A stretch of DNA of 64,000 nt from Candidatus Gastranaerophilales bacterium (GTDB lineage Bacteria; Cyanobacteriota; Vampirovibrionia; Gastranaerophilales; Gastranaerophilaceae), in NCBI GenBank assembly GCA_944325025.1, contig CALUYN010000009.1, positions 1 through 64,000 of the forward strand, in the 5' to 3' direction. The number at the start of each line of letters is the position of its first letter. The stretch's first letter is position 1. A program made the position numbers and the translations under genes. Positions 16,607-49,420 of the stretch are shown one piece after another. A model generated the notes under the pieces. That model was not told the origin of the DNA. It saw only the letters and a program-made list of their open reading frames with translations, and made no database searches.

Positions 16607-17608
16607 TCACCACGGATAATCTTCCTTAATTTCCCAACCGTCAAGTAATATAAAATATCCGCAAGTATAAAAAGTCCCGGATTTACAGTTTTTTAATGCT
16701 GACTGTTTGTTAGATTCATATTTATAAAATTCAAATATTCTTGAAAGCAAGTTGAATGTCATTACAAAAACATCTTTTCCTAATTTATTAGGGCCCTGAA
16801 ATCCATTTATGTCGACAATGAAGTCAGGATTTAAATATTTATCCACACATGTACCATCCGCAACACTTGTTCCTTCTGAACATCCTGAAGTTCCTATTGA
16901 TATACTAATCAATACATTACTTGGCAGCTGAAGAAAATACTTATATGAGTTGGCTCCGGAGGTAAGATTTCCGTCTGTCGGTAATTTCGGCCCATCATAC
17001 TTAATAGCATTTCTGGTTGTATAACCGTAATCTTTTGATACTTTCAAATATGGAACAAAGTATTTTTTTACGAATGTTTCTAATGCTTCTTTTGAAGAAA
17101 AATTACTGTCGCCTGTAGGAGTACCGTATATACCTGCAAGCTCCCAAGTTGTTGAATCTCCATGTTCAGCCTGTGCCATAGTTAGCGCCTGTGATATAAT
17201 TGAATAAGTTTGTTTTAATTTTGTTACCGTTTGTTTCTTTTGATAATTGTTTATCAGTGAAGGTATGGTCATCGCAGCAACAACACCGATTATGCCGAGT
17301 GTGATGAGAACTTCCGCCAAAGTAAATGCAACTCGTTTTTTTAGTGAAGAGTGAAGGGTGAAGCGTGAAGAGCGGATTTCTTCCTTCCCTTCTGTGTGGA
17401 AAAAATTATTGTCATTACGAGCAAACGCAGTTTGCGTAGTAATCTCATTCATATTGCAGCAATCTTGCGATTGCGACGGTCGTTTCACTCCCTCGCAATG
17501 ACAGAATTGAACAGCACCTTCTCCTGTGGGAGGGAAAAGTTTTTCGATACTAGCTTTGCGTCTTTGCCTCTTAGCATCTTTGCATCTAAAAACGAGATTC
17601 TGAAACAA
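16607..17608 (-). CDS. Prepilin-like protein A, long repeat-derived leader; start codon out of frame
   Basis: The conserved part starts at KKRVAFTLAEVLITLGIIGV, a type IV prepilin/pseudopilin signal (Glu at mature position 5, one hydrophobic helix). A globular domain follows, carrying a D-x-N-G-x3-PN-x2-GKDVF motif shared by all five prepilins here and ending in WEIKEDYPW. No Met lies near the cleavage site. The frame is open through about 90 codons of leader translated from dispersed repeats, up to 17701. The real start is probably ATG 17745 (AAGGAG, promoter 17782-17810), but the 10-G run at 17706-17715 puts it out of frame. With 10 G the product is MKRFELMQSFGGGAL then stop; 11 G would give the full protein. 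Confidence 0.8.
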   Translation of the reverse strand: MFQNLVFRCKDAKRQRRKASIEKLFPPTGEGAVQFCHCEGVKRPSQSQDCCNMNEITTQTAFARNDNNFFHTEGKEEIRSSRFTLHSSLKKRVAFTLAEVLITLGIIGVVAAMTIPSLINNYQKKQTVTKLKQTYSIISQALTMAQAEHGDSTTWELAGIYGTPTGDSNFSSKEALETFVKKYFVPYLKVSKDYGYTTRNAIKYDGPKLPTDGNLTSGANSYKYFLQLPSNVLISISIGTSGCSEGTSVADGTCVDKYLNPDFIVDINGFQGPNKLGKDVFVMTFNLLSRIFEFYKYESNKQSALKNCKSGTFYTCGYFILLDGWEIKEDYPW

Positions 17609-17697
17609 GTTCAGAATGACGTAACTAGCTTGACCTCCTGCCTTCTTGACCTCTGGTCTTCTATCTAACTGCCTAACCTCTTTGCCTCCGGCACAGC

Positions 17698-17745
17698 CTA
17701 CAGTGCCCCCCCCCCGAAGCTCTGCATTAATTCAAATCTTTTCAT
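17698..17745 (-). other. Start codon cassette with G10 tract of prepilin gene A
   Basis: ATG 17745, nine codons to TTC, ten G (17706-17715), GCA CTG, then TAG at 17700-17698. The same ATG-to-tract sequence recurs at prepilin gene B (37534-37496). A run of ten G in an AT-rich genome is a strong slippage site. Confidence 0.85.
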
Positions 17746-17781
17746 AATTTTTTACTCCTTGCTATATGTACAACAATTTTT

Positions 17782-17810
17782 ATTATAACATATTTTCACA
17801 AATATCTCAA
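17782..17810 (-). promoter_or_regulatory. Promoter of prepilin gene A
   Basis: TTGAGA (17810-17805), a 17-bp spacer and TATAAT (17787-17782) on the minus strand. It points into the AAGGAG-ATG at 17745, giving a leader of roughly 30 nt. Confidence 0.7.
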
Positions 17811-17878
17811 TGAAATACTTATTAAAATACTAGCAAAAATTTTTTTTACGAGTTTTCTTATAAAAAAAGGAAACTCTT

Positions 17879-18403
17879 ATGTCTGTAAATTCTCCTCAAA
17901 TTGATCCTAATATGTTATATCTCTCACCTTCCGCGTCTAAAAAACGTAAAGTCGGAGCAACAATATTCGGCGGGCTTTTAGGAATGACAGCCTACTATCT
18001 GCCGGTAACTAAAGATGAATTTGTTAGTAAAGCTTTCAAAATTACAAAAAACGAAGCAAATTCACAAATAGCTTCTCTTGCTCAAGCTGTAAAAGAAATA
18101 GAAAAAAATTCGCTTTCTTCTGAAAGTAAAATGACGCTGCAAGAAATGGGAGTTAATCCGAATATAACAGAAATTACAAATAAATGTATGGAAATTGATA
18201 AAAAAGTTTCCGATCCGGATTCTGTAAAAAGTCTAAAAAAATTCTTTAATGACAATTTTAAAAACTTTAAAAAGAACCCGCATTTAATGGATAACAATTG
18301 CGCAGATGCCTTTAAATCTATAAAATGGAACAAATTTAAATGGGGAATGGGTATAGGTGCTGCATTAGGACTTGCATTCAGCCTTATGTCAAGCAGAGAT
18401 TAG
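17879..18403 (+). CDS. Hypothetical protein with two hydrophobic segments
   Basis: A 174-aa protein. Glycine-rich hydrophobic segments lie near residues 26-44 (GATIFGGLLGMTAYYLPV) and 155-170 (GMGIGAALGLAFSLM), flanking a charged helical middle. This resembles the 42512 and 43237 proteins in style. AAGGA lies 8 nt before the ATG. It overlaps the convergent 18384-19010 gene by 20 nt. No recognised family. Confidence 0.7.
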   Translation: MSVNSPQIDPNMLYLSPSASKKRKVGATIFGGLLGMTAYYLPVTKDEFVSKAFKITKNEANSQIASLAQAVKEIEKNSLSSESKMTLQEMGVNPNITEITNKCMEIDKKVSDPDSVKSLKKFFNDNFKNFKKNPHLMDNNCADAFKSIKWNKFKWGMGIGAALGLAFSLMSSRD

Positions 18404-19010
18404 CAGGCTGCCTTACAAAATCTATAACATCAAATCCTTTAAATGTTGAAATCTTTTTTATATTTTCAGGATTTTTAGTATTTTCACGCGCAAGAATTGC
18501 ACCAACTATAGCTTCCAACTGGGACATCGGCATCATATTTGAAGGTAAATCAATCCCATATTCAAACCTTAACATCTGCTGAAGATATTTACAGTCTGCA
18601 GGCGAACGTTCCTTATAACAGGAGTTTAAATGCATGCTCTGACGTGTTAAGTATACTTCAAAACGTGTTATATCAATTCCGTTTTCTGCTAATGATTTAA
18701 AATATTCGCAGCCTCGTGTTGAATATCTTTGAGTCCATCCGTCACGATTTGGCATCAAAGGATTTGTTGAAACAAGCTGATACTGTTTGCCGAAAATTCT
18801 CCACTTGCCGTTAAGCATTGTTCTGTCCCAGACTAATGAAGCACAAATCTTTGAATATTTTAAAGATGAATAATTATCAAAAAAATGCATTACATCATTC
18901 ATCGTATACAGTTTGTCAATATATATCAGATTATTAAAAACATCTATAATTGCAACACCTGTATCAACACTTGATGATGCGGCAAGCGAAAGCCCTATAT
19001 AATAATTCAT
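18384..19010 (-). CDS. Possible RNase H-fold protein (DUF429-like)
   Basis: A 208-aa protein. The start YYIGLSLAASSSVDTGVAII looks like the first strands of an RNase H-like fold, as in DUF429 predicted nucleases, and SQLEAIVGAILARE near the C-terminus fits the last helix. Catalytic acidic residues cannot be assigned confidently. The start lies just after map on the same strand (8-nt gap, GGAG inside the end of map), so it is probably co-transcribed with adk-map. The family assignment is tentative. Confidence 0.55.
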   Translation of the reverse strand: MNYYIGLSLAASSSVDTGVAIIDVFNNLIYIDKLYTMNDVMHFFDNYSSLKYSKICASLVWDRTMLNGKWRIFGKQYQLVSTNPLMPNRDGWTQRYSTRGCEYFKSLAENGIDITRFEVYLTRQSMHLNSCYKERSPADCKYLQQMLRFEYGIDLPSNMMPMSQLEAIVGAILARENTKNPENIKKISTFKGFDVIDFVRQPANLCLT

Positions 19011-19018
19011 GATATTTT

Positions 19019-19771
19019 TTACTCCATCAATTGCGTAATTATAATAGGTTCATCATCGGTTGCAAGAACTGTATGTTCAAAATGAGCAGAAGGCATATTA
19101 TCAGCAGTGCTGACAGTCCACTCATCGTCTGCCACAACTACCTCATCACACCCTAAATTAAGCATAGGTTCTATAGCAATTGCATAACCGGATTTAATCA
19201 ATGTATGATCCCCAACTTTGTAATTAAACAAAAACGGTTCTTCATGCATTTCGTGCCCGACACCGTGACCTCCGTATTGTCTTACAATACCGAGTTTTTC
19301 TCTGACTGCAACAGCTTCAACTGCGCCTGAAATATCATCCAAAACATTTCCCGCTTTCATTTGCGCGATTCCGGCATATAGCGCTTCTTCTGTCGTTTTC
19401 AAAAGCCTTTGGCATTCGTCGCTTATTTTTCCGACAGGATAAGTCCAAGCACCGTCCCCGACCATTCCGGCATAAGTTGCACCGACATCAATGCTTATGA
19501 TATCGCCTTCTTTAACTTTTACATCTTCATGCGGAATGCCGTGAACAACCTGTTCATTAATAGAGGCGCAAATAGAACCCGGAAAACCGTGATAACCTAA
19601 AAACGTCGGAACTGCGCGTTCTTTTCGAATAATATCATGAGCAATACTATCCAATTCTTTTGTGCTTATGCCGGGTTCTATAACTTCTCTCATCTTTTTG
19701 TGAACAAGAGCTACAATATGCCCTGCATGACGCATTCTTTTGATTTCATCACGTGATTTTCGATTTATCAT
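19019..19771 (-). CDS. map: Methionine aminopeptidase, type I
   Basis: A 250-aa metalloprotease that removes N-terminal Met. The ligands are visible: D in SIDVGATYAGMVGDGAW (two Asp), H in GGHGVGHEMHEEP, E in AIEPML and E in HFEHTVL. It lies downstream of adk on the same strand, the usual order in ribosomal-protein clusters, although secY and infA are absent. AGAGG precedes the ATG. Confidence 0.96.
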   Translation of the reverse strand: MINRKSRDEIKRMRHAGHIVALVHKKMREVIEPGISTKELDSIAHDIIRKERAVPTFLGYHGFPGSICASINEQVVHGIPHEDVKVKEGDIISIDVGATYAGMVGDGAWTYPVGKISDECQRLLKTTEEALYAGIAQMKAGNVLDDISGAVEAVAVREKLGIVRQYGGHGVGHEMHEEPFLFNYKVGDHTLIKSGYAIAIEPMLNLGCDEVVVADDEWTVSTADNMPSAHFEHTVLATDDEPIIITQLME

Positions 19772-19900
19772 AAATATAACCTCTTTTTTAGAGAAGTGAA
19801 TAAGTCAAAAAGTTCATAAATTCGCTCCGCTCAAAAATAATTTTGTTTTATTGCTTCTGTTAACGACTTATTTACTAATTAACCTATTTACTTATTCACT

Positions 19901-20560
19901 TTAACTAATTACCTCTAACAATCTTTCCCAAACTTCATCAATTGTACCGTTTGCGTTTATTGATTTTAGAACACCTTTTTTTGTATAGTAATCAATTAAC
20001 GGAGCTGTTTCTTTGTTATAAGTATCAAATCTCGATTGAGCTACTTCTCTTGTGTCGTCTTTACGTTGAGTAAGTTCTGCTCCGTCTTTGTCACAGCGTC
20101 CTTCAACTTTAGGCGGTTTGAATTCAAGGTTGTAAATTTCTCCGCAAACAGGGCAAGAACGGCGGTTAACAATTCTTTCAACAAGAATACTTGTATCAAT
20201 ATCAAAATAAACAGCAATAAATTTTGTATCAATACCGTTGTCGATCTCCGCATTCATTTTTTCAAGCTGTTCAGCCTGTTCAACGCTTCTCGGGAAACCG
20301 TCTAAAATATAACCGTTTTTACAATCATCCTGAGAAAGTCTGTTTTTAATAATTCTTGTAACAAGTTCAACAGGAACAAGCTGCCCTTTGTCAATATAAG
20401 CTTTAGCCTCTTTTCCTGCTTCTGTTTCGTTTTTAATTTCCGCCCTCAATAATGAGCCTGTATCAACATGCGGGAAATTAAGATATTCTGCAAGTTTGTT
20501 TGTTTGAGTACCTTTACCGCAAGCCGGCGGTCCTAAAAAAATCAATTCTTTTTTTGTCAT
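19901..20560 (-). CDS. adk: Adenylate kinase, zinc-type lid
   Basis: A 219-aa kinase interconverting ATP + AMP and 2 ADP. P-loop GPPACGKGTQ, NMP-binding HVDTGSLLR, YILDGFPRSVEQAE. The long-form lid has CPVCGEIYN and GRCDKDGAE, a Cys3-Asp zinc site. AGAGGG precedes the ATG. It is followed by map after a 130-bp gap. Confidence 0.96.
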   Translation of the reverse strand: MTKKELIFLGPPACGKGTQTNKLAEYLNFPHVDTGSLLRAEIKNETEAGKEAKAYIDKGQLVPVELVTRIIKNRLSQDDCKNGYILDGFPRSVEQAEQLEKMNAEIDNGIDTKFIAVYFDIDTSILVERIVNRRSCPVCGEIYNLEFKPPKVEGRCDKDGAELTQRKDDTREVAQSRFDTYNKETAPLIDYYTKKGVLKSINANGTIDEVWERLLEVIS

Positions 20561-20646
20561 AATAAATCCCTCTTTCGTCTAACTTATGAGATTATTGTAT
20601 ACCAAGAACAATTTTAATTCAATTACGTAATCAATATTATGGGAAG

Positions 20647-20930
20647 TGAAACAATCTACAAAGCTACATTGTTGGTACTTTCTTGTACCGACAAGAAAGT
20701 ACCACAAAGAAACTCCCGTCAGTCACTCCGTTCACTAATCAATTGTAATTGCTCAACTCAAGCCGGCTAAACTCGCTCATACGTCATTCTGAACTTGTTT
20801 CAGAATCTTTAAATATTACGCTCAGACAATAGCCGGCTTTGTCATTGTTTCACAAACATTGATTGTTCACTACGTTAAATGCTGGATTATTTTTTCTATT
20901 TTCCGTGCGCCTCGCGCACCGTAAAGAACT
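20647..20930 (+). repeat. Composite dispersed repeat element, copy 1
   Basis: About 285 bp of non-coding DNA between adk and gyrB. It contains the palindrome GGTACTTTCTTG...CAAGAAAGTACC (about 20675-20703), the palindromic module ATTCTGAACTTGTTTCAGAAT (20786-20806, written here as two abutting parts), a CCGGCT pair bracketing that module, and a GCGC-rich hairpin near 20908-20922. The same series of modules recurs in reverse orientation at 56450-56730. No gene is seen. Confidence 0.75.
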
Positions 20931-20976
20931 TAACGCCATATCGCCTTAACGTCTTATCGACTTATTATAATATTGA

Positions 20977-23547
<2,571 letters not shown>

Positions 23548-23697
23548 CTAATTCCCTTGACTATATTGTAACACAAACACATTTTTTTTACGAATTTATG
23601 ACAAAAAGTTAACTTTACACTTATTTATAGCCTGTCAGTGAATTTTAAAAGCGTTGATTTAAGTTAAAGTGCATTTGTAATTTATAAGGAGAAATTT

Positions 23698-23991
23698 ATG
23701 TCTAAAAATTTGATGAAATCTATAGGTAAAATTATTGAGGAAAGCGGCTCAAATAAAATCACAATTTTCACATCGCATTTAAAAATCGACGGCAGTCTTT
23801 TTCAGCCAGAAGGCAAGTGTGAAGAATGCCATGACGATTTTATAACTATTGAAAATGCACTGGTCTGCCGTCTGAATGATTACTGTACATGCGACGATGA
23901 CAACTGTGAATGCAACGACTATGTTTGCTTTAAATATGACTGGCTGAATATTGCAATAGATAAAATCGTTTCTTTCAGTATTGTTCAATAG
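23698..23991 (+). CDS. Cysteine-rich small protein, unknown function
   Basis: A 97-aa protein with eight Cys after residue 40: CEECHDD, then CRLNDYCTCDDDNCECNDYVC. The spacing suggests metal binding but matches no family I know. The N-terminus (IGKIIEESGSNKITIFTSHLKIDG) looks like a small beta domain. AAGGAG precedes the ATG. It is divergent from gyrB and ends at its own terminator. Confidence 0.7.
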   Translation: MSKNLMKSIGKIIEESGSNKITIFTSHLKIDGSLFQPEGKCEECHDDFITIENALVCRLNDYCTCDDDNCECNDYVCFKYDWLNIAIDKIVSFSIVQ

Positions 23992-24023
23992 TACGAAAAC
24001 AAAGCCAGTTTACTCTCACCGAG

Positions 24024-24044
24024 ATTCTGAAACAAGTTCAGAAT
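24024..24044. repeat. 21-bp palindromic repeat
   Basis: ATTCTGAAACAAGTTCAGAA plus a final T, an imperfect palindrome. Close relatives lie at 17597-17617, 20786-20806, 52053-52073, 53070-53090, 53101-53121 and 56568-56588, usually beside GTCA/TGAC. In the gene A leader it is translated. Confidence 0.8.
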
Positions 24045-24105
24045 GACGAAGTTTATGAAAATCATCTGAATTTATTTCATTGGTACAAACTGCATTCAAA
24101 ATAGC

Positions 24106-24136
24106 AAGAGCCGCCCATATAACCGACGGCTCTTTT
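24106..24136. terminator. Shared terminator between convergent genes
   Basis: An 8-bp stem AAGAGCCG / CGGCTCTT with a T-run on the plus side. It lies between the Cys-rich gene (plus) and the HD-GYP gene (minus). Confidence 0.7.
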
Positions 24137-24154
24137 TATATATAAAATAGATGC

Positions 24155-25915: not shown

Positions 25916-25918
25916 AAA

Positions 25919-29613: not shown

Positions 29614-30473
29614 TTATCTGCAGTATAGATTGTAATATCCGTCAGCACCATAACAAGGATCTCCGTTTGCCTTATAAGGCGATTTACCAATAGAGTCCAT
29701 ATATGCAACAAAGTCATTTAAAGTACAACCACTTTCCTTAGTGCTGCAATCTTTTATTTCATTTATAAGTTCATCTGAAATATCTACTAAAATACCGTTG
29801 GCAAACATATATTTGTACAAATCCTGCTTTGGCGCATTCGGAGTTTTAGCTGTGTTGGTATCAACTACAATGCTTAAAGCAGAAGCACCATTCTGCATAT
29901 CAGACATCACATTCCAACCAAAAGTCATACCATCTGCAGTTGTAAATATATAAGGAATCTGATCCCAACTAAACGAAACATATTGAGTTTTTGACGGTGC
30001 ATTATATTCCTGCGGCAAACGACTCAACATAGCATTATAATTATTGTCACCGAGAAAGGCATCATCTACTATTGAAAAATATTTTTTAAATTCAGATGAA
30101 ACAAAATTAAATAGGTCGGCTTCAGAAGATACTGACCCGCCGCATGAAGCTAAATTCCCGGATAAACATGATATTAACGGAATATCAGAAACTGACGTGA
30201 CTTCATTTTTTGCCATCATCAAATTAAAGCCCTGGGCTAATACACTCTGGCTTTTTTTGTACTGAGCTTCATAAACCTTGTCTTTGTGTTTTGATACCAA
30301 TGGAGGTAAACTTATAGCTGCAACAACACCTACAATAGCAATAGTAACTAAAGTTTCAGCAAGAGTAAACGCCTGACGGCACCCGTATAAAGAAGCTCTT
30401 AATTCCGGCAATAAACTAAAGACGAGCTCAGAGCCCCCCCCCCGACGGGATTCGAATTTTTTAAGTACTTCAT
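29614..30473 (-). CDS. Prepilin-like protein D with G10 tract; start codon out of frame
   Basis: A prepilin signal (QAFTLAETLVTIAIVGVVAA, Glu at position 5) is followed by a globular part with paired Cys and the VVDTNTAKTPNAPKQDLY version of the shared prepilin motif. ATG 30473 has GGAG upstream and a near-consensus promoter (30506-30534). The ATG frame runs MKYLKNSNPVGGGALSSS and stops at TAA 30401-30399, because the G10 run (30434-30443) shifts it. The prepilin frame is open upstream as far as a TTG at 30534, but that TTG is the promoter -35 box. Eleven G would join ATG and prepilin in one frame with a leader of about 35 aa. Confidence 0.8.
30434..30443 (-). other. G10 slippage tract in prepilin gene D
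   Basis: Ten consecutive G on the minus strand, ten codons after ATG 30473. The ATG frame and the prepilin frame differ by one base across it. Confidence 0.85.
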
Positions 30474-30505
30474 AAACTTGCTCCTTTATTATAATCTGTA
30501 TTATT

Positions 30506-36093: not shown

Positions 36094-37374
36094 CTAAGGC
36101 AGACATTCCCAATATGTCTTTGAACTGTCATCAGGGCATATATTTGCTACTGCAAAATATGCACATGATGCTCCGTTTCTTACATTAGTAGAGTTTTTTG
36201 AACAATAAGTTGAATTAGGTTTCATTTCCCAGTGAGAATAATCAGGCGAACCAACCGGGACTAATTTATTTTTGTTAAATGAAAAATAAAAAATATCATG
36301 CCCCAAAGCATTCGGAGCCCTTTTGGGGCCGTTTGTATCTATTACAAGCCAACTGGCAAAACAGTTATAACATCCGCTGATTGCCGAACCGTCTGCAGCA
36401 ATCCTTGTTGGTAATTGGGCACAATTATTCATAGCTCCTTCTTTTTTATTATAATTTTTTATTGCGAATTGGTTCTTTTTATCTTTGTAAAGATCAGTAA
36501 CATCCTCATCAGTAATAACTCTGTATTTACTATATAATTCAGTATAAAATTCCGTATCCCTGTCCCCTGCATTGCTTGTCCAGGCAGAAATCATATCAGG
36601 CTCAATTGAATAAAGCGCCTGCTGTAAAACAGAATAAGCTTTTTTGAATTCAGTTTCTCTAACCTTGTGCTGATATTTAGTCATTAAAGTTGGAATAGTC
36701 ATCGCAGCAACAACCCCGATTATGCCGAGGGTGATGAGAACCTCTGCTAAGGTAAACGCGGATTTCTTTAGTCGATAAGGCGATAAGACGTTAGGACGAT
36801 AAGTCTTTTTAAGTGAAGGGTGAAGAGTGAAACGTGAAGAAAATTTGTCATTACGAGGCAGCGTGCCGCTGCACCCGACACCTGGGTTTTGCATTGCATT
36901 TTCTATGTCATTACAAGGAGAATGCGACGCATTCGACGTAGTAATATCATTCATATTGCAGCTATCTTGCGATTGCGGATCAGTTTCGCTGACCGCAATG
37001 ACGAAAACAGGTGCTAAGTCATTCTGAGCGAAGCGAAGAATCTCATTATCGCCACGATTTTGCGATTGCCACGGTCGTTTCACTCCCTCGCAATGACAGG
37101 GGGAAAATTGACATGAATTGTCTAACATGGCTACGTGCGTAGCACCCTCGCAATGACAGGTTACTCCCTCCCTGATTAGGGAGGGTTGAGGTGGGTAACT
37201 GTCAGAAGAACAGAAGACCGGAGGGCAGGAAGGCAGGCTAGTTTCATTTATAGCTATTTTGGTAAAATTGCAACAATATTTATCACCGATATTAGCTTCG
37301 CTTCTATGCCTCTTGACATCTTTGCATCTAATTAAACCCTCACCCGCAGTTGTAAGTTCACTTTGTTCACACAA
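36094..37374 (-). CDS. Prepilin-like protein B with long repeat-derived leader; two slippage tracts upstream
   Basis: Prepilin signal LKKSAFTLAEVLITLGIIGV, then a globular domain with DTNGPKRPNALGHDIFYFSF and several Cys. The leader frame is open for more than 200 codons of translated repeats (for example CHCEGVKRPWQSQ) up to TTG 37374. The gene-like start is ATG 37534 (AAAGGAG, promoter 37562-37589). Between them lie a G9 run (37496-37504) and an A10 run (37399-37408 on the plus strand as T). With 9 G the ATG frame ends at TAG after 23 codons. Eleven (or 8) G with 11 (or 8) A would fuse start and prepilin. The last about 290 bp of leader are near-identical to gene C. Confidence 0.7.
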   Translation of the reverse strand: MCEQSELTTAGEGLIRCKDVKRHRSEANIGDKYCCNFTKIAINETSLPSCPPVFCSSDSYPPQPSLIREGVTCHCEGATHVAMLDNSCQFSPCHCEGVKRPWQSQNRGDNEILRFAQNDLAPVFVIAVSETDPQSQDSCNMNDITTSNASHSPCNDIENAMQNPGVGCSGTLPRNDKFSSRFTLHPSLKKTYRPNVLSPYRLKKSAFTLAEVLITLGIIGVVAAMTIPTLMTKYQHKVRETEFKKAYSVLQQALYSIEPDMISAWTSNAGDRDTEFYTELYSKYRVITDEDVTDLYKDKKNQFAIKNYNKKEGAMNNCAQLPTRIAADGSAISGCYNCFASWLVIDTNGPKRAPNALGHDIFYFSFNKNKLVPVGSPDYSHWEMKPNSTYCSKNSTNVRNGASCAYFAVANICPDDSSKTYWECLP

Positions 37375-37495
37375 CTGCTCCCTCTCCCAAGATAGAGTTT
37401 TTTTTTTATGATACAGGCTTGACCACCTGCCTTCTTGACCTCTGGCCTTCCATCTAATTGACTAGCTTCTTTGCCTCCGGCGGAGCCTACAGTGC

Positions 37496-37534
37496 CCCCC
37501 CCCCGAAGCTCTGCATTAATTCAAATCTTTTCAT
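37496..37534 (-). other. Start cassette with G9 tract of prepilin gene B
   Basis: ATG 37534, then the same codons as gene A (MKRFELMQSF) and nine G. Downstream CACTGTAGGCT also matches gene A, so the cassette is duplicated at the two loci. Confidence 0.8.
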
Positions 37535-37561
37535 AATTACTCCTTTCTTATCTACATTATA

Positions 37562-41123: not shown

Positions 41124-41261
41124 GATTTTGTACCTTGTAAATACACTATATCTTGTTCATTCAAAAAATAAATTAAACGGTTATACAAATTTACGGACTT
41201 GCATAAAACAGGTTAAAATGATAAAATATTCTTGTAATACAAATTAAAAGAGGAAATTTTA

Positions 41262-41435
41262 ATGGCGAGATTAATAAGACCAAGTTTGGCAATCAGATGC
41301 GTACAATCAGGATGTAAAACACTGTTTGAAGTAGCAAAAGTGGAAGATGGCAAACAGCAGGAAGTTGTATGCCCCGGCTGCGGGGAACATTATGTTTACC
41401 CAATCTATGATGACGAAGAAGATAAAAATTCATAG
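41262..41435 (+). CDS. Small zinc-ribbon protein
   Basis: A 57-aa protein. IRCVQSGCKTLFEV and VVCPGCGEHYVYP provide four Cys (C-x4-C and C-x2-C), a likely zinc ribbon, then an acidic tail. AGAGG precedes ATG 41262. It ends 10 nt before the radical SAM gene, probably co-transcribed. Function unknown. Confidence 0.75.
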   Translation: MARLIRPSLAIRCVQSGCKTLFEVAKVEDGKQQEVVCPGCGEHYVYPIYDDEEDKNS

Positions 41436-41445
41436 TTTTTAGCTT

Positions 41446-42375
41446 ATGTTTAATAATACAGATAAGCGCTACAATCAATTCAGCGCTCATTTAAAAAATA
41501 AATTCGGCGTTAAGGTTTACAAAATAACACTTGATGCCGGTTTTTCATGTCCGAATAGAGATGGAACAATTTCTTCAGGCGGGTGTATCTTCTGCGATGA
41601 AGGCGGTAGCTTTTCTCAGGCGCATTCCAATCTTCTTTCTATAGAAGAACAGGTTGAAGAAGGCATAAAAACTTTATCAGCGCGCTTTAAGGCGCAAAAA
41701 TTTATGTCCTATTTTCAGGCTTTTTCAAATACCTATAAACCTGTAAACGAGCTTGAAAAAATATACAATTCTGCGCTAAATCATCCTGACATTGTCGGAC
41801 TTTCAATAGGAACAAGGCCTGACTGCATTGATGATGAAAAAATAAAACTCATATCATCATACAAAAAAGATTACTATACATGGGTTGAATACGGCTTACA
41901 GTCAATTCATGATAAAACATTAAAAAGAATAAACCGCGGACATGACTTTGATTGTTTTTTAAGAGCTTATGAAAAAACAAAAGAAGCAGGTATAAATGTT
42001 TGTGTTCATGTAATTTTCGGACTCTGGGAAACACATGACGAAATTATGCAGACTGCACAAAAACTTGCGGAACTTGACGTTGACGGCGTAAAAATCCACA
42101 TGCTCTGCGCACTTAAAAGTACCAGACTGGCACAAATTTATAAACAAGGCGGCATTGATTTTATGGATGAAGATGAATATGTACAGACAGTCTGTGATTT
42201 TTTGGAATATCTGCCTGAAACTACGACTATTCACCGCCTTGCAGGTAACGGTCTGAGCACAGAACTTATTGCTCCGGTCTGGCTCGGCAAAAAATTTGAC
42301 TGCCTGAATAAAATTGATAGAGAATTCATTAAGAGAAATTCATATCAAGGGTGTAAATTTGTTTACAAAAAATAG
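41446..42375 (+). CDS. Radical SAM protein, YhcC/TIGR01212 family
   Basis: A 309-aa protein. The cluster motif is C-x10-C-x2-C: CPNRDGTISSGGCIFC, with the first Cys in FSCPNRDG. GLSIGTRPDCI, VEYGLQSIHDKTLKRINRGH and HVIFGLWET match the YhcC family by recall; the reaction is not established. The small zinc-ribbon gene lies directly upstream. Confidence 0.9.
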   Translation: MFNNTDKRYNQFSAHLKNKFGVKVYKITLDAGFSCPNRDGTISSGGCIFCDEGGSFSQAHSNLLSIEEQVEEGIKTLSARFKAQKFMSYFQAFSNTYKPVNELEKIYNSALNHPDIVGLSIGTRPDCIDDEKIKLISSYKKDYYTWVEYGLQSIHDKTLKRINRGHDFDCFLRAYEKTKEAGINVCVHVIFGLWETHDEIMQTAQKLAELDVDGVKIHMLCALKSTRLAQIYKQGGIDFMDEDEYVQTVCDFLEYLPETTTIHRLAGNGLSTELIAPVWLGKKFDCLNKIDREFIKRNSYQGCKFVYKK

Positions 42376-42511
42376 ATTATATGAGATAATAGTATGGCAA
42401 AATACTGAGCATTTTTTGTAACAATTTATTACAAAAAAGTGCGGATTTCAGCAAAATTATTTTTTCAGCAGTGTTAGGTTATGTGAAAAATTATCTAAAC
42501 GGAGATAAAGT

Positions 42512-43234
42512 ATGTTATCGATACAACCAAAATTTTCTACAAGTTTTAAACCTGCATTCAAATCTAATGAACCAAACGAAGATTATTCATCTATCAGTTT
42601 AAATGATATGGATGAAGATACTTATGAATCAATGAGGGATGATTTACGAGAACAAAAAAGCGATTTTCTAGATTTAGCCAACAATTCTGAATTTAAACTG
42701 CCAAAACCTATAAAAAAAGGGCTTGAAGGCGGAGCTGTTGTAACAACAGGTCTTTTAGGCGGTATGGCCACAGGCTGGGGAGCTAAAAAATCTATACAGG
42801 GATTTTCAAAACTCGCAAAATCAGCGCCGGTAAAAAGCTTTAAACACTATATCAAAGATACAAGAAACTTTATAAAAAATTCATCTGCAACTGTAAAAAA
42901 ACAGTTCTTGGAATCTAATGTTTATAAAAAGCCTGCAAATGCTATCAAAACACAGTATAACAAATTTGCAAAAACAAAAATCGGTTCACCTATAACAAAA
43001 TTCCTTGAAAATGTAAAAGACGGAATAGCAACAATTTATAAAGATATTCGTACAGGTCTAAAACATTTATGGAAAAAAATAAAAGGTGTGAAAAAAGAAT
43101 CTTACGAAAAAGCTGTTGTTAACACAGTCGGTGCATCAGGCGGTATAGCATCAGGCGTTACAGCATTAAAAGAAACTCAAGAAAAAAACAAAGCAGAAAT
43201 GCAAAACTCGGACATTGATTACGGAGAAGAATAG
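42512..43234 (+). CDS. Basic hypothetical protein with Gly-rich hydrophobic segment
   Basis: A 240-aa protein. A Gly-rich hydrophobic segment (GGAVVTTGLLGGMATGWGAK, about 72-91) is followed by a very Lys-rich helical region. No signal peptide or family recognised. GGAG lies 7 nt before the ATG. It is 2 nt from the next gene, whose product has the same style; the two are probably an operon and related. Confidence 0.7.
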   Translation: MLSIQPKFSTSFKPAFKSNEPNEDYSSISLNDMDEDTYESMRDDLREQKSDFLDLANNSEFKLPKPIKKGLEGGAVVTTGLLGGMATGWGAKKSIQGFSKLAKSAPVKSFKHYIKDTRNFIKNSSATVKKQFLESNVYKKPANAIKTQYNKFAKTKIGSPITKFLENVKDGIATIYKDIRTGLKHLWKKIKGVKKESYEKAVVNTVGASGGIASGVTALKETQEKNKAEMQNSDIDYGEE

Positions 43235-43236
43235 TT

Positions 43237-43725
43237 ATGCGCGTTTCTTTTAATGATAAAATAGCATATACCTCAAATCCAGACTCTCACAGTGAAGCCA
43301 AAAAAGATGCTGAAAAAAAAGTTGTCACAGGCGGCGGAGCAGTTGCAGCTGCAACAGCAACTGCAAGAGCCAAAGCTGCAAAATCAGGCTTTGATATGTT
43401 CAGCTCTGCAAAAAAAGTTTCACAAGGAATGAAAGGCGTTAGAGAAACAACAAGAACTGCTGCTAATGTTGCAAAACAAACAAAAGGTCTGTGGGCAAAA
43501 GTTGCGGAAAACGCCAGATGGGCAAAAGATGCAATTTTAAATTGGGGCTCAAAATTTAAAAATATGAAATTTATAAGACCAATTGTAAAAAGTCCGCTGT
43601 TCAAAGGAGCTGCAGGTGCCTTAGGATACGGATTTGGTATCGTAACCCTGATTTCCGGTCTGTCTGATATAACAAAAGTAACTACAGAAGCTGTAGAAGG
43701 CAAGCTTTTACATAACGAAGATTAA
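43237..43725 (+). CDS. Ala/Lys-rich hypothetical protein
   Basis: A 162-aa protein. An Ala-rich stretch (GGGAVAAATATARAKAAK) and a C-terminal hydrophobic segment (GAAGALGYGFGIVTLISGL). The N-terminus VSFNDKIAYTSNPDS resembles short leader-like starts of nearby unknown proteins. It follows the previous gene by 2 nt. No family recognised. Confidence 0.65.
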   Translation: MRVSFNDKIAYTSNPDSHSEAKKDAEKKVVTGGGAVAAATATARAKAAKSGFDMFSSAKKVSQGMKGVRETTRTAANVAKQTKGLWAKVAENARWAKDAILNWGSKFKNMKFIRPIVKSPLFKGAAGALGYGFGIVTLISGLSDITKVTTEAVEGKLLHNED

Positions 43726-43749
43726 CTAACAGGCAATGTTTAAAAATAT

Positions 43750-43783
43750 AAAATCGTGCTAAGCTAAGCTTATGCACGATTTT
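43750..43783 (+). promoter_or_regulatory. Hairpin spanning the folP start codon
   Basis: A 10-bp perfect stem AAAATCGTGC (43750-43759) / GCACGATTTT (43774-43783) with a 14-nt loop. The folP ATG (43772-43774) sits at the loop/stem edge and codons 2-4 are in the stem. GTTTT follows. It may be a weak terminator for the upstream operon or a translation block on read-through mRNA. Confidence 0.55.
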
Positions 43784-44905
43784 GTTTTAAGAGAGCTTAA
43801 AAATACTAATACAGAAGAAGAATTAAACCGCATAGGCTTTGACAAATCTTACGCTTCCAAAGCTGCTGACAAATTTGGATATAAAAACATAAAAATTTAC
43901 GAACTTACCCCTGCTCAGGCCAATATAATCAAACAGACAGCAATATCAGTTGGTGCAGACTGTGCAACCCATAGAGAAGTTATTACAGGTAAAATAGAAA
44001 AATCAGACTGCATATTAGGCGGAAGTATTTCAGAGATAAGAAAAATAGGAGAAAAACTGAAATTTCAACCGTTCGGGTTAAAAGAACTCGGAGAAAAGCT
44101 AGTTCAGATTGCTGCCTGCGATAAAAATGTGCATTGCAAAATAGCCGGTATATTAAACCTTACAACAAACTCTTTTTCTGACGGCGGGATGTATAACGAT
44201 TTTGAAAAAGCAAAAGAGCATATTCTTGAAATGATAGATGATGGTGCCGATATTATTGATATCGGAGCTGAATCAACAAAACCCTATTCACAGCCTGTCA
44301 GTGCAGAAGAACAATTAAAAAAACTTTTGCCGATTATAGATTTTGCAAAAGATAAAATAACGCTTAGCATAGACACACGAAGTGCAATTGTTGCACAGGA
44401 ATGTATAGATGCAGGAGCCAAAATAATAAATGATGTTTCTGGATTTGATTATGATAGTAAAATGCCTGATGTAATTGCTAAATACAATGTTCCTATTATT
44501 ATCCAACATTCAAAAGGAACGCCGGAAAATATGCAGAATTCGCCTAAATACAATGATGTAATTGAAGAGATTTATCTTGCATTAAAAAACAAAATTGATT
44601 TTGCACGTTCAAAAGGAATTCAAAACATAATAATTGACCCCGGCATAGGTTTTGGCAAAACAAGAGAAGATAATTTTGAGATAATAAAAAGAATTGAAGA
44701 ATTTAAAACTCTGGGATATCCGGTTATGCTGGGTATTTCAAGAAAAAGTTTTCTTGATATGGCTGATGACGATAATTTCACAAAAGATATTTATACAACA
44801 GCCCTGAATGCAATAGCAATTGAAAACAATATTGATTATATCCGTGTTCACAATGTAAAAATGCATAAGAAACTCATTTGTTTACTTGAAAATTTCAAAA
44901 AATAG
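43772..44905 (+). CDS. folP: Dihydropteroate synthase with N-terminal extension
   Basis: A 377-aa folate enzyme. The catalytic TIM barrel starts near residue 125: GILNLTTNSFSDGGMY, DIIDIGAESTKPY, DTRSAIVAQECIDAGA, IDPGIGFGKTREDNF and LGISRKSF. The first about 115 residues (YELTPAQANIIKQTAISVGA) form an extra domain known from some longer DHPS proteins. No Shine-Dalgarno; see the hairpin at 43750-43783. Confidence 0.94.
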   Translation: MHDFVLRELKNTNTEEELNRIGFDKSYASKAADKFGYKNIKIYELTPAQANIIKQTAISVGADCATHREVITGKIEKSDCILGGSISEIRKIGEKLKFQPFGLKELGEKLVQIAACDKNVHCKIAGILNLTTNSFSDGGMYNDFEKAKEHILEMIDDGADIIDIGAESTKPYSQPVSAEEQLKKLLPIIDFAKDKITLSIDTRSAIVAQECIDAGAKIINDVSGFDYDSKMPDVIAKYNVPIIIQHSKGTPENMQNSPKYNDVIEEIYLALKNKIDFARSKGIQNIIIDPGIGFGKTREDNFEIIKRIEEFKTLGYPVMLGISRKSFLDMADDDNFTKDIYTTALNAIAIENNIDYIRVHNVKMHKKLICLLENFKK

Positions 44906-44945
44906 GTTATAATAAATATATATATATTATAATTAGGAGTCTGTT

Positions 44946-45713
44946 TTGCGAAAGAATGCATTTAATTTTTCGGAAGTAATGATAACTATTGGAGCAATTG
45001 GAATCGTTGCAGCCCTTACTATGCCGGGAATTGTTGCGCATTACCACCAAAAAGAATATGTCACACAGCTCCAAAGAGCTTTAAGTCAGTTTGAGCAGGC
45101 TATGCAGATTATAATGTTCAGACATGAATGCACTGATATCTTATGTACCGGAGCATTTGACGGCACTGCTTCAGATGCTGAATGGAATAAAAAATTTGAA
45201 AAAGAAATAACAAGATCAATAAAAGTTATAAAAACAGCACAAAATGGGACTGCAATGGAGCCGCAGCTAGATTCAGCACCGTTAAAACCCGAAAAAACAA
45301 AGCTGAGTGTTCAAGCAGATTGGCGTTCAACAGCAGGTTTTAAATTTTTGCCGCCAGATGGTGTACTATACCTTGTAATCCCCAAAAACTGCGAAAGTGT
45401 ACCTTTTCCTGATTTAAGCACAATAAAAAATATTTGTGCTGAAGTTACCATAGATGTAAACAGTATACGCCGCCCAAATCAATACGGCAGAGATATATAC
45501 AAATTCATAGTTGCACAAAACGGTCATTTATACCCGATGTACGGGCGTGATTATTCTAATGCAACAACCGGCAGTGCTTCCGGAAACGGCTACTGGCGTA
45601 CAAATCCTGAATTATGCGCAGGAGAAGGTCTTTTACACCAAGCTCCTAATAATGTCAGCGGGGATGGCTGTGCCGCAAGAATAATGGAAGATGGTTGGAA
45701 AATGACTTATTAA
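44946..45713 (+). CDS. Prepilin-like protein with short normal leader
   Basis: A 255-aa protein starting at TTG 44946 with AGGAG 8 nt upstream. The leader is only about 7 residues (MRKNAFN), then FSEVMITIGAIGIVAALTMP, a prepilin helix with Glu at position 3 rather than 5. The shared motif appears as DVNSIRRPNQYGRDIYKF, with Cys residues and the ending MEDGWKMTY. No G tract and no repeats: the contrast case for genes A-D. Confidence 0.85.
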   Translation: MRKNAFNFSEVMITIGAIGIVAALTMPGIVAHYHQKEYVTQLQRALSQFEQAMQIIMFRHECTDILCTGAFDGTASDAEWNKKFEKEITRSIKVIKTAQNGTAMEPQLDSAPLKPEKTKLSVQADWRSTAGFKFLPPDGVLYLVIPKNCESVPFPDLSTIKNICAEVTIDVNSIRRPNQYGRDIYKFIVAQNGHLYPMYGRDYSNATTGSASGNGYWRTNPELCAGEGLLHQAPNNVSGDGCAARIMEDGWKMTY

Positions 45714-45831
45714 TTTTATCTCTTTACTACAAATCTTTGTTTATGGTAAAATAAAATAGCACTGGGATATCAGGAGCGTAAGGCTCTGAAAAACTGTCCT
45801 TAAAGCTTTAAAATTATAACAAGGAGATAAA

Positions 45832-47274
45832 ATGGAAGATTTAAGAGATAAATACGAAGTTGTTATAGGTTTGGAAGTACACGCACAGCTAAAAACCAAA
45901 TCAAAAATATTTGCACCTGACGGCTGCGAATTCGGTAAAGAACCAAACTCGGAAACAAGCCCTATTACTTTAGGGATGCCGGGAGTTTTGCCTGTATTGA
46001 ATAAAGAAGCCGTTAATATGGGGATTTTAACAGGGCTTGCCTTGAATTGCGAAATTCCTGAACGCTGCAAATTTGACAGAAAACAGTATTTTTATCCAGA
46101 TCTTCCAAAAGGTTATCAGATATCTCAGTATGATGAACCGATTTGTGTAAACGGATACCTTAATGTAAAAGGTAAAAGAATAGGTATCACTCGTGCGCAT
46201 TTGGAAGAAGACGCAGGAAAACTTGTTCACGCAGGGGCTGACGGGCTTGCAGGATCTTCTTATTCGCTTGTTGACCTTAACAGGGCAGGCACTCCGCTTC
46301 TTGAAATCGTATCAGAACCAGATATGAGAAGCTCAGAAGAAGCTAGAAACTATATGGAAGAATTAAGAAATATTGTCCGCTATATAGGCGTTTGCGACGG
46401 CAACCTTGAAGAAGGTTCAATGAGATGCGACGCAAATATCTCTATTATGCCTAAAGGGTCAAAAGAATTCGGCACACGTGCAGAAATCAAAAACGTGAAC
46501 AGTTTTTCAGCCCTTCAAAGAGCTATTGAATATGAAATCGACAGACAAATCGAAATCGTTGAAGAAGGCGGAAAAGTCGTTCAGGAAACAAGATTGTGGG
46601 ATGATAATGCAAGAGAAACCAAATCTATGAGAGGCAAAGAAGATGCCCATGATTACAGATACTTCCCTGAACCTGACTTAATGCCTTTAAAAATATCAAG
46701 AGAATGGGTGGAAGAAATCAGAGCTAAAATGCCCGAACTCCCGCAGGCCAAACGTGAACGCTATATGAGCTTAGGTTTGAGTGAATACGATGCCTCAGTA
46801 ATCGTTGAACAAATGGGCCTTGCACTCTTCTTTGATGAAGTTTTGAAACTGGGCGCTTCTCCTAAAATTGCCGTCAACTTTATTATGGGAGAAATTGCAG
46901 CTTATCTAAAAGAAACAAAACTTGAAATTAATGAAACTAAGTTAACGCCTGAAAATCTTGTTGAATTGATTTCTCTTATTGAAAAAAATACAATTTCAAA
47001 CAACATCGGCAAACAAATTATTGTTGATATGATGAAAGACGGTTCAAAAGCTTCAGAAATCGTTGAAAAAAGAGGTTTAAGCCAGATATCTGATACAGGC
47101 GCAATTAAAGAAATTGCACAAAAAGTCTGCGATGCAAATCCTGATCAGGTAACTGCTTATAAAAACGGAAAAGTTCAGCTTCTAGGCTTCTTTGTCGGAC
47201 AGGTAATGAAAGAAACTAAAGGCAGAGCTAACCCGAAAGCCGTTAACGAAATTTTGAAAGAAATATTAGGTTAA
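45832..47274 (+). CDS. gatB: Asp-tRNA(Asn)/Glu-tRNA(Gln) amidotransferase subunit B
   Basis: A 480-aa kinase/transfer subunit of GatCAB. VVIGLEVHAQLKTKSKIF, YFYPDLPKGYQISQYDEPI, RAHLEEDAGKL, DLNRAGTPLLEIVSEPD and a C-terminal GatB/YqeY domain (GFFVGQVMKETKGRANP). AAGGAG precedes ATG 45832. gatA and gatC are not adjacent. Confidence 0.97.
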   Translation: MEDLRDKYEVVIGLEVHAQLKTKSKIFAPDGCEFGKEPNSETSPITLGMPGVLPVLNKEAVNMGILTGLALNCEIPERCKFDRKQYFYPDLPKGYQISQYDEPICVNGYLNVKGKRIGITRAHLEEDAGKLVHAGADGLAGSSYSLVDLNRAGTPLLEIVSEPDMRSSEEARNYMEELRNIVRYIGVCDGNLEEGSMRCDANISIMPKGSKEFGTRAEIKNVNSFSALQRAIEYEIDRQIEIVEEGGKVVQETRLWDDNARETKSMRGKEDAHDYRYFPEPDLMPLKISREWVEEIRAKMPELPQAKRERYMSLGLSEYDASVIVEQMGLALFFDEVLKLGASPKIAVNFIMGEIAAYLKETKLEINETKLTPENLVELISLIEKNTISNNIGKQIIVDMMKDGSKASEIVEKRGLSQISDTGAIKEIAQKVCDANPDQVTAYKNGKVQLLGFFVGQVMKETKGRANPKAVNEILKEILG

Positions 47275-47281
47275 GTATATT

Positions 47282-48340
47282 ATGTTTTTACAAAACAACA
47301 AACAAACATGTATGGAAACAGAGATATTTGAACAAGCAGAAGTTCTTAAGAATTTGCTTCGCACACATGTTAATGATAACAATTATATTCTTTTTGATAT
47401 TCCTGTAGATATCCAAAAAATCATACTTGTTGCAAGCGGTTCTTCTTACCACTGTGCTCGCTATACAGCTGATTTATTTGGCAATATCGCAGGAATGGAA
47501 GCTCGTGCAATTTATTCAAGCGAATTTCTTTTAAAATCAGCAGTACCGCATGACAATGATATTTTATATGTCTTCATCACACAGTCAGGTGAAACCTCAG
47601 ATACTAATTCCGCATTGAAAAAGGCCAAAGAACTTGGAATGCGCACTCTTGCAATTACAAATAAAAAAGGCTCAACCATCTGGGAAGCTGCGGATTTTAA
47701 AATAGACTGCCACGCAGGTGAAGAAAAAAGTATTGCAGCAACCAAATCCCTGACAGCCCAAATGCTTTGCTGTACACTGCTTGTTTTAAAATATGCCGCA
47801 CATAAGGGTGTTGATATTTCCAATTATATTAACGAACTCAAAACCCTTCCTTCTTTTGTGGAAAAAACTTACCTGCTTCATCCGCAGATAAAAGATATGG
47901 CAAAACAGCTTTCTAAATTTAAGAACATCGTAATCACAGCCGACGGAATATCTTACGCAATCGCAAAAGAAGCTTCGTTAAAAATAAAAGAAACATCATA
48001 TATAAATGTTTATTCAAATATTTTAGGCGAATTTATGCACGGTCATGTTGCGATTTTAAACAACAAACCCGCAATGATTCATATATCCGTGACTGAATTA
48101 ACATACACAGCAATTAAAAACTTGAATAAGATAGAAGAGGATTACAACCCGCCATTATTTGTAATCGGGTATACTAACGAAAAAATAAAAACAAAATTCC
48201 ATATAGACATCACTTGTGAAAGCGAGATTGTAAAGTCGTTCTGCATTGTGGTAATAAGCCAAATTCTAGCGCTAGAAATTGCGCTCTGTCTTGGACGCAA
48301 CGTCGACAAACCGCATGGATTGAATAAGGTTGTACAATAA
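47282..48340 (+). CDS. Double SIS-domain sugar isomerase, GlmS-like without glutaminase
   Basis: A 352-aa protein with two SIS domains. VASGSSYHCARYTADLF and TQSGETSDTNSALKKAK in the first; EASLKIKETSYINVYSNILG with GEFMHGH in the second; DKPHGLNKVVQ at the end matches the GlmS tail DKPxxLxKxV. It lacks the N-terminal glutaminase domain, so it may use ammonia or act as an aldose/ketose isomerase or deaminase (FrlB/AgaS group). It starts 7 nt after gatB. Confidence 0.85.
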   Translation: MFLQNNKQTCMETEIFEQAEVLKNLLRTHVNDNNYILFDIPVDIQKIILVASGSSYHCARYTADLFGNIAGMEARAIYSSEFLLKSAVPHDNDILYVFITQSGETSDTNSALKKAKELGMRTLAITNKKGSTIWEAADFKIDCHAGEEKSIAATKSLTAQMLCCTLLVLKYAAHKGVDISNYINELKTLPSFVEKTYLLHPQIKDMAKQLSKFKNIVITADGISYAIAKEASLKIKETSYINVYSNILGEFMHGHVAILNNKPAMIHISVTELTYTAIKNLNKIEEDYNPPLFVIGYTNEKIKTKFHIDITCESEIVKSFCIVVISQILALEIALCLGRNVDKPHGLNKVVQ

Positions 48341-48365
48341 TTAAAAATATCAAAGGAGGTTCTAA

Positions 48366-49420
48366 ATGATTATAAATAAAGCTAAAAAGTGCCCCCCCCC
48401 CGCAAAGACAGCGTTATAGCAAGCGTTTCCGTCATTGCAGACAGCAAAGCTGATCCGCAATCGCAAAATAGTTGCAATAATGATGAGATTACTAAGTCGA
48501 ATGCTCCGCATTCTCCTTGTAATGACATAGAAAATGCAATGCAAAACCCAGGTGTCGGGTGCAGCGGCACGCTGCCTCGTAATGACAAATTCTCTTCACG
48601 TTTCACTCTTCACTCTTCACTTAAACAGACTTATCGTCCTAACGTCTTATCGTCTTATCGACTAAAGAAATCCGCTTTTACCTTAGCTGAAGTTCTCATC
48701 ACCCTCGGCATTATCGGGGTTGTTGCTGCAATAACTATGCCTGCTTTATTTGCAAAATACCAGAAACAACTAATGGTAAATCAATTGAAAGCCGCTTACT
48801 CAATATTGTATAATGCTCTTAATCTTGCTCAACAAGAATATGGAGATTACAGGTATTGGACATATTATCAGGATGATAAAGGGGTACAGGGCAGCTCATA
48901 TGAGTTTGTAAATACATATCTAAAACCATACATCAAAAATGTTGAGTTATACAATGGAAGCAATAACATAAAAGGTTGTAAAAATATTACATACAGAAAT
49001 ATGGATAGAAGTATCGCCGATTGCTCAAGTGTTAGCGGATTTTGTGAAATTTGCAGCAGCGCACTACCGCTTACTCAAATACATTTAGCAAACGGTATGA
49101 TTATGATTGCCCTTGTAAGACAAAACAAAAATGTTACAACAGGCGAAACCATACCAAAAGCTGAATTTTTTATTGACTCTAATGGGCTCAAAGGCCCAAA
49201 TATCTGGGGCAAAGATATTTTCAGGTTTTCTCTAAGCTATAGCGGCGGTCAATACAGTGCATCTAACTCGGGCAGCAACACGATGAAACTCTGCGGAGGC
49301 GACTGTCACTCACGTGATTTCAATTTGAAAGAACAATGCACAATGACATCAGCCTATGGATGTGCTGAAGTTATAATTGGGGACAGTTGGCAAATAAAAG
49401 ACGATTATCCCTGGAAATAA
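48366..49420 (+). CDS. Prepilin-like protein C with C10 (G10 on opposite strand) tract; start codon out of frame
   Basis: AAAGGAGG lies 6 nt before ATG 48366. Eight codons (MIINKAKK), TGC, then a run of ten C (48392-48401). As written the ATG frame ends at TAG 48418-48420. The adjacent frame is open from the tract for about 90 leader codons of translated repeats to LKKSAFTLAEVLITLGIIGV and the whole prepilin, with DSNGLKGPNIWGKDIFRF and the ending WQIKDDYPWK. One extra C makes a single frame. GTG 48389 is an in-frame alternative start without a ribosome binding site. It lies 25 nt after the SIS gene. Confidence 0.8.
48392..48401 (+). other. C10 slippage tract in prepilin gene C
   Basis: Ten C ten codons after an excellent ribosome binding site and ATG. 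Here the run is C on the coding strand, whereas genes A, B and D have G on the coding strand, yet the length that restores frame is again 11. Confidence 0.85.

Follow-up and report, generated by a model that had tools for sequence, protein, structure and literature searches.

Out-of-frame G/C tracts at prepilin gene starts point to a phase-variable pilin repertoire in Gastranaerophilales

INTRODUCTION

Why would four prepilin genes in one stretch of a genome each be preceded by a well-formed start codon that is out of frame with the prepilin? The Gastranaerophilales are a gut lineage related to cyanobacteria, and the question is raised by 64,000 nucleotides (nt) of a Candidatus Gastranaerophilales draft genome of 1.76 Mb (GenBank assembly GCA_944325025.1, hereafter G000; contig CALUYN010000009.1, our contig C9, positions 1 to 64,000), a stretch that we call the window. 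An initial annotation of the window described four prepilin genes, here A to D, in which a ribosome binding site and ATG are followed by about ten codons, a run of G or C, and a leader that continues into the prepilin, and it proposed that slippage in these runs switches several pilins by way of a removable leader. The measurements reported here fit and support that proposal: the pilin repertoire of these bacteria is probably subject to slipped-strand phase variation that is off by default and whose switch is carried on a leader expected to be cleaved away.

RESULTS

The window contains exactly four G/C runs of 7 or longer, each of them ten C on the + strand, at 17706-17715 (gene A), 30434-30443 (D), 37495-37504 (B), and 48392-48401 (C). 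Matches to nine consecutive C, counted on both strands, number 8 (overlapping within these four runs) versus a mean of 0.02 in 100 dinucleotide shuffles. The early claim that such runs are otherwise absent from the window is thus correct, although the genome as a whole holds 57 runs of at least 8, of which 53 are at least 9 versus 0.4 expected from composition. Each of the four runs follows a strong ribosome binding site (Shine-Dalgarno, SD) and an ATG, placed 30 nt ahead of the run in A, D, and B and 26 nt ahead of it in C; in no case does the ATG share a frame with the prepilin, and the distance from run to prepilin motif is 64 to 738 nt. TATAAT-like boxes upstream of these genes were recognized by eye only. 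As originally suggested and now computed, a run of 11 or 8 puts the ATG and the prepilin of A, C, and D in one frame. Gene B, whose run had been counted as 9 and is in fact 10, has a stop in the prepilin frame 43 nt past the run start, so that no run length joins its ATG to the prepilin; it had been listed with the other three as a switch and is, as assembled, a broken, nonworking member of the set.

Gene A, on the − strand, opens with a ribosome binding site read directly as AAGGAG (17755-17760), followed by the ATG with ten codons (MKRFELMQSF; 17716-17745) and a tract of ten G in the sense direction (17706-17715) that leaves it in frame 2, one base short of the state that we call ON; the written frame ends after 15 codons at a TAG (17698-17700). 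Its leader (17327-17705) is open in the prepilin frame and consists mostly of dispersed repeats, and its prepilin body (FTLAEVLITLGIIGVV...; 16607-17326) is predicted to form a long N-terminal helix and a beta domain. Gene D (− strand) has AAGGAG at 30481-30486, ATG and ten codons (MKYLKNSNPV) at 30444-30473, ten sense G in frame 2 at 30434-30443, a short leader at 30370-30433, and a body (FTLAETLVTIAIVGVV...) at 29614-30369. Gene B (− strand) likewise has AAGGAG (37540-37545), an ATG with ten codons whose peptide is identical to that of gene A (37505-37534), and ten sense G (37495-37504), followed by a broken leader in which the prepilin frame is closed (36757-37494) and the body (36094-36756). 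Within the gene B leader, ten T at 37398-37407 (ten A in the sense of the gene) form the longest A/T run of the window, which may be read as a second slippery site or as decay. Gene C, on the + strand, starts from AAAGGAGG (48352-48359), with the ATG and 26 nt up to the run at 48366-48391; its tract is ten sense C (48392-48401; G on the − strand, as in A, B, and D), again in frame 2, its leader (48402-48676) is open in the prepilin frame and has sequence in common with the gene B leader, and its body lies at 48677-49420. The tract-free prepilin that the initial annotation set against these four (44946-45713, + strand) does have its own nearby start, an SD and a TTG 5 codons before FNFSEVMITIG. 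A search of the window with Rfam at gathering thresholds returned three tRNAs and nothing further.

In the mechanism that we propose, the tract would act as a slipped-strand switch about ten codons into the prepilin gene. At the usual length of 10, translation from the ATG would pass through the tract and stop about two codons later (OFF), and cells in this state would make no pilin; the gain of one G/C at replication (11), or the loss of two (8), would join the ATG to leader and prepilin (ON), after which prepilin peptidase would cut off everything ahead of the FTLAEV helix. Because the leader would be removed by the peptidase, it could freely hold the tract and accumulate repeats. With dozens of such loci per genome, each cell would display a small and changing subset of pilins.

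The reading frames of tract-prepilins were compared across five genomes of the genus (G000, G001, G004, G007, and G010), which together supplied 166 prepilins with a run no more than 1.5 kb upstream; 4 were dropped for N or a contig edge and 4 for a frame closed before the run, leaving 158. The ATG before each run was chosen by ribosome-site strength and closeness, with frame not used. Followed backward from the motif, the prepilin frame meets no stop before the run in 158 of 162 tract-prepilins, compared with 16 and 7 for the other two frames, and among leaders of at least 60 nt it is open in 97 of 101 versus 0 and 1. Only 14/158 tract-prepilins have, within 30 codons, a start with an SD that lies after the run and before the motif; 19/25 tractless prepilins have an SD-preceded start (9/14 in G000). 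Run length is nearly uniform (n = 10 in 141 loci, 9 in 7, 11 in 6, 12 in 2, 8 in 1, and 13 in 1), and 148/158 loci share the register in which a run of 11 (or 8) is ON. The pre-run part of these 148 loci occupies all three phases (88, 44, and 16 loci) and still yields a single register, which means that changes before and after the run compensate; collapsing similar flanks leaves the same register in 98 of 108 flank clusters. We infer that selection sets this register. As assembled, 13 of the 158 loci are ON, seven of them at n = 10; in 135 the run lacks one base for ON (134 loci with n = 10 and a single one with n = 13), and the other 10 occupy the third frame. The on/off switch of the early proposal is thus not an even coin. 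The frame of the one-short state meets a stop within 4 codons of the run in 136/158 loci (median, 2), versus 24/158 (median, 8.5) for the other closed frame. A family of large prepilins (FTLAEMMVV, 442 to 674 residues from the motif; G000 C14:14961, C16:1691, C16:20392, C19:13746, and C32:10827, and loci L178 and L182) has a different pattern, with 4 of the 6 that carry a tract ON as assembled, three of those by another register.

A second set of seven genomes was gathered with a pattern that requires a sense G-run of at least 9; it comprises 59 tract-prepilins, of which 55 were used. In another genus (G073, G126, G181, and G200), the usual length is 9 (23/28 loci) and the register shifts with it, a run of 10 being ON in 27/28; 22 of these 28 loci are one base short, 5 are ON (four with n = 10 and one with n = 9), and the last is in the third frame. 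A third genus (G055, G188) keeps the register with ON at 11 in 21/22 loci, with 3/10 and 3/12 loci ON, and a fourth (G136) contributes 5 usable loci, 4 of them one base short, along with 3 leaders closed before the run. Lengths differ among loci with similar flanks: one family in G188 (≥75% identity) has runs of 9, 10, 10, 11, and 12, each 103 nt from its prepilin, and the upstream 24 nt are identical for n = 9, 11, and 12. More than one length occurs in 11 flank clusters at this identity. These differences are between paralogues of one genome in consensus assemblies, never one locus over time; under the proposed mechanism, tract lengths would also switch within a population.

The choice between G and C in a run follows the chromosome. 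Polarity was counted over 31 contig segments with at least two tracts, which excludes 4 of the 158 prepilins on single-tract segments; four contigs (G007 C1 and C2, G010 C1, and G004 C52) were split after their strands had been seen, and the G000 contigs are unsplit. Tracts of one segment have their G-run on a common strand in 194/195 cases, the exception being G000 C2:124208, and tract-prepilins encoded on that strand carry sense G in 112/112 cases while those on the opposite strand carry sense C in 42/42. The window conforms, with ten G in A, B, and D on the − strand and ten C in C on the + strand. The G-run strand, which we infer to be a replication strand, has a G/C ratio of 1.15, and 174/206 tracts lie on the locally G-richer strand; the leading strand is expected to be G-richer. 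Composition skew was rejected as the sole cause of the polarity, since 1.15 to the tenth power is about 4, and a ratio of roughly 4:1 is too little for 194/195.

Polarity is also our main reason for preferring slippage of DNA over programmed recoding, in which RNA polymerase or the ribosome would slip (by an extra base or a −1 frameshift) so that 10-base genes are steadily expressed from unchanged DNA. A recoding signal would suit the constancy of the −1 offset, which is kept in 135/158 loci and, at a different run length, in 22/28 loci of the other genus, and it would suit the prompt closure of the written frame (136/158 versus 24/158). However, sense G- and sense C-runs obey one rule despite their different codons (n = 10 and one base short in 94/113 and 40/45, respectively), and the letter in the mRNA follows the chromosome strand (112/112 and 42/42), whereas a mechanism at the RNA level should constrain that letter itself. 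The 13 loci that are ON and the 10 in the third frame also count against recoding, as do 11 of 18 assessable tract genes other than prepilins, which are in frame at 10. We regard recoding as unlikely, though it is the strongest competitor of slipped-strand switching.

Those other genes bear equally on the question of miscounting. The five genomes hold 42 runs of at least 9 that are not associated with prepilins, 18 of which lie between open frames and were scored: besides the 11 that are in frame at a length of 10, 2 genes have n = 11 and would come into frame with one base fewer, and for the remaining 5 the ON length is 11 (four of them have n = 10 and one has n = 12), two of these five being prepilin-like by eye (G000 C1:4172, from its start module, and G001 C1:121468, from its YTLAEIVIV). 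The register with ON at 11 is thus found in 148/158 prepilins versus 5/18 other genes (Fisher P = 4.6e-10). If the true runs were 11 and all genes ON, with one base lost in assembly, the offset would nearly always equal one missing base, as it does, and homopolymers are error-prone. The same assemblies, however, leave these other genes in frame at 10, which argues that the offset is not systematic miscounting; moreover, a run of 10 leaves seven prepilins ON, the assemblies also contain runs of 8, 9, 11, 12, and 13, and another genus has 9 as its short state. An assembly artifact therefore seems very improbable.

Among the in-frame cases, G000 C4:75662 has ten G in the middle of an open reading frame, with 582 and 417 open codons on either side and an HECGH motif recognized by eye in the second part. 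Seven of the nonprepilin tract genes were compared with Pfam: glycosyltransferase family 2 is over cut-off in two and just below it in one, one is TupA-like ATP-grasp, one is DUF1796, and two have no match. Three glycosyltransferase family 2-like genes have runs of 10 to 11; those at G000 C17:8537 and C24:18769 are in frame at 10, and the one at G010 C1:360420 has a run of 11 and is out of frame. A second run, at C24:19059, lies in a frame just upstream of C24:18769. Glycosyltransferase-type tract genes may form a default-on group alongside pilins that are off by default.

Leaders in G000 reach 280 codons, and in the four sister genomes their median is 9.5 to 30 codons. For the 32 G000 leaders of at least 60 nt, the share of bases that resemble fetched G000 DNA elsewhere has a median of 99% (match in 28/32), compared with a median of 0% (match in 15/34) for a 300-nt stretch of each of 34 prepilin bodies. 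In the window, the leaders at 17327-17705, 36757-37494, and 48402-48676 are built of dispersed repeats, with translations such as QNPGVGCSGTLPRNDK and YVILNLFQNL. On this sequence evidence, the leader appears to be an insert that is tolerated between the switch and the pilin, in keeping with the disposable carrier of the initial annotation. Its frame is of no consequence if the short written frame is instead a leader peptide that controls transcription by attenuation, as at Streptococcus gallolyticus pil1. Short peptides with an early stop are indeed common here (exactly 15 codons in 44/135 frame-2 loci), but attenuation does not require a leader open in the prepilin frame up to the run, which is found in 158/162, and we consider it more improbable still than miscounting. 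Least credible of all is that the loci are mostly pseudogenes with decayed 5′ ends, a reading suggested by gene B, by three others of the 162 whose leader is closed before the run, and by 4/59 in the second set, and contradicted by open bodies, by a register kept far more often than chance would give (98/108 flank clusters), and by a layout found in 22/50 genera.

The initial annotation suggested looking for the layout in related genomes, where it does recur: the search pattern SD-ATG-CG9 matches in 92/241 genomes of the order and in 22/50 genera, with 0 to 3 matches per strand for a reversed control, and outside the family in 2/22 genomes, with one match each. Relatives of gene A come from Candidatus Gastranaerophilales metagenome-assembled genomes in 17 of 20 loci, and a run precedes the prepilin in 14 of the 20, with 5 of the other 6 ending at a contig edge close upstream. 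Within the genus (25 genomes), runs of at least 9 increase in number with PF07963 matches (Spearman 0.72, or 0.89 if G022 is left out), the most tract-rich genome being G004 with 151 such runs; 15 genomes of other families have 0 to 6 each. Within the fetched stretches of G000, 36 of 50 prepilin motifs have a run no more than 1.5 kb upstream, and in G007 all 75 fetched runs of at least 9 (of 77 in the genome) have a prepilin within 1.5 kb. The stretches of G007 and G010, and most of those of G001, G004, and G000, were picked around runs, so these are not genome-wide tract shares; the G000 sample was extended by 12 stretches that surround other prepilins, and detection of prepilins by motif misses variants such as YTLAEIVIV. 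The same pattern matches at least 120 viral stretches in IMG/VR (L253 to L372), and 0/120 among the matches listed have a run no more than 1.5 kb before a prepilin motif; viral contigs thus supply no population variants of these loci. Phage genes with such runs could themselves be phase-variable.

Judged from sequence, prepilin peptidase would be expected to remove the leader, and cleavage probably occurs. The usual residue before the cleavage site of prepilins is Gly; in A, B, C, and D the residue before F is Ala, which is a caveat for cleavage. PF07963 is over its cut-off at all four tract loci of the window in the genome search; once trimmed to begin at FTLAE, the bodies score below that cut-off (C not listed), and only C reaches the cut-off of TIGR02532. 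Of the machinery, prepilin peptidase (PF01478) is over cut-off in one place in the genome and the T2SSE-family ATPase (PF00437) in three of four places. AlphaFold2 predicts for the gene A body a 53-residue N-terminal helix (residues 3 to 55) followed by strands, with a mean predicted local distance difference test score of 87 (56 to 63 over the first 20 residues). A long N-terminal helix with a beta domain is as in type IV pilins; a fold search of the PDB with this model gave no match at an E value of 0.001 or better.

DISCUSSION

Three findings characteristic of slipped-strand switching come together in these genomes: the tracts are far beyond chance, their length sets the frame (gene B excepted), and lengths differ where flanks are kept. 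Several observations nevertheless weigh against a pilin switch. A random switch needs no bias in register, and yet ON lies one base below the modal length (register 0) in only 1/158 loci. Length is also more uniform than expected, with 141/158 at 10 versus 43% at the mode (9) of the stationary distribution that we computed from the Campylobacter jejuni rates in PMC8224891, where poly-G slippage is described as biased toward insertion at 8 to 9 and toward deletion at 10 to 11. Majority consensus in mixed populations may explain the uniformity, and every locus is known from consensus assemblies in one length state only. The position of ON one above the mode is not accounted for by slippage alone; a selected default-off state would fit it, and recoding fits in part. 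In the same genus, G022 has 128 prepilins (PF07963) and 4 runs of at least 9, G024 has 23 and none, and G013 has 16 and one; in the second set, 4/59 leaders are closed before the run and the early-stop contrast is weaker (49/55 versus 24/55). Tractless prepilins with a near start, which the initial annotation had held to speak against a switch, thus do occur in part: of 10 prepilins sampled from G022 (L193 to L202), 7 have an SD-preceded start 4 to 10 codons before the motif and 1 has a tract (n = 12). This suggests that the switch is absent from the G022 lineage, either through loss or from the outset, and we read its tractless pilins as a lineage difference. Finally, mutS1 is over cut-off in 37 of 40 genomes searched, G000 included, so that slippage in G000 would not be raised by its loss, and we ruled out loss of MutS as the cause.

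A more specific form of the slipped-strand reading, which we put forward tentatively and with somewhat less than even confidence, is a pilin lottery with an evolved default. Of the dozens to roughly a hundred prepilin genes in a genome, most would sit one base short at the equilibrium length of a G-tract polarized with respect to the replication strand, so that few are ON per cell at random; glycosyltransferase-type genes would be default-on, genes on the opposite strand would have evolved C-runs, and polarity would be part of what drives or limits slippage.

Homopolymer tracts that control pili are familiar from Neisseria pilC and Bordetella fim, in the first case through a pilus accessory protein and in the second through promoter tracts, and at one or few loci. 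Here, in contrast, it is a repertoire of prepilins that would be controlled, every one of them having a separate tract and a leader that can be removed, and a surface role of these pilins seems likely. The closest likeness is to the C. jejuni phasome, with its intragenic G/C tracts of about 8 to 12 in an AT-rich genome, ON and OFF states set by frame, and surface-related genes. In C. jejuni, the median number of tracts is 20 per genome (PMC6321876), and tracts lie at +87 to +2,572 within genes and have mixed in-frame lengths (9 in 12 genes, 10 in 6, 8 in 3, 11 in 3, and 10 or 11 in capA, with 3 bracketed loci uncounted; PMC4965091, Table 1). Gastranaerophilales, unlike C. jejuni, have up to 151 runs of at least 9 per genome, mostly at prepilin gene starts, in nearly one register with ON one above the mode, and with strict strand polarity. 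In S. gallolyticus, changes of repeat number in a short leader peptide control Pil1 expression (PMC3894217); those are GCAGA repeats acting by transcription attenuation, unlike the single-base run in a frame continuous with the pilin found here. Poly(A) and poly(T) homopolymers at 5′ ends have also been described as gene-inactivation sites (PMC2831843), which resemble our tracts in the near-5′ run and very short OFF product and differ in that ours are G/C runs, out of frame at the usual length. In the open-licence literature we found no report of phase variation in Gastranaerophilales and, for Melainabacteria pilin or Gastranaerophilales pili, none on phase variation by title; nor did we meet the rules of fixed register and strict polarity in the part of the open-licence phase-variation literature covered.

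If slipped-strand switching of these genes is true, an uncultured gut lineage carries a set of simple-repeat switches several times denser than that of C. jejuni and applies it to pilins one by one. Gene callers may annotate tract pilins as truncated or falsely started because, as assembled, their true start codon is in another frame. Register and polarity are testable rules that might make it possible to deduce slippage bias from sequence alone.

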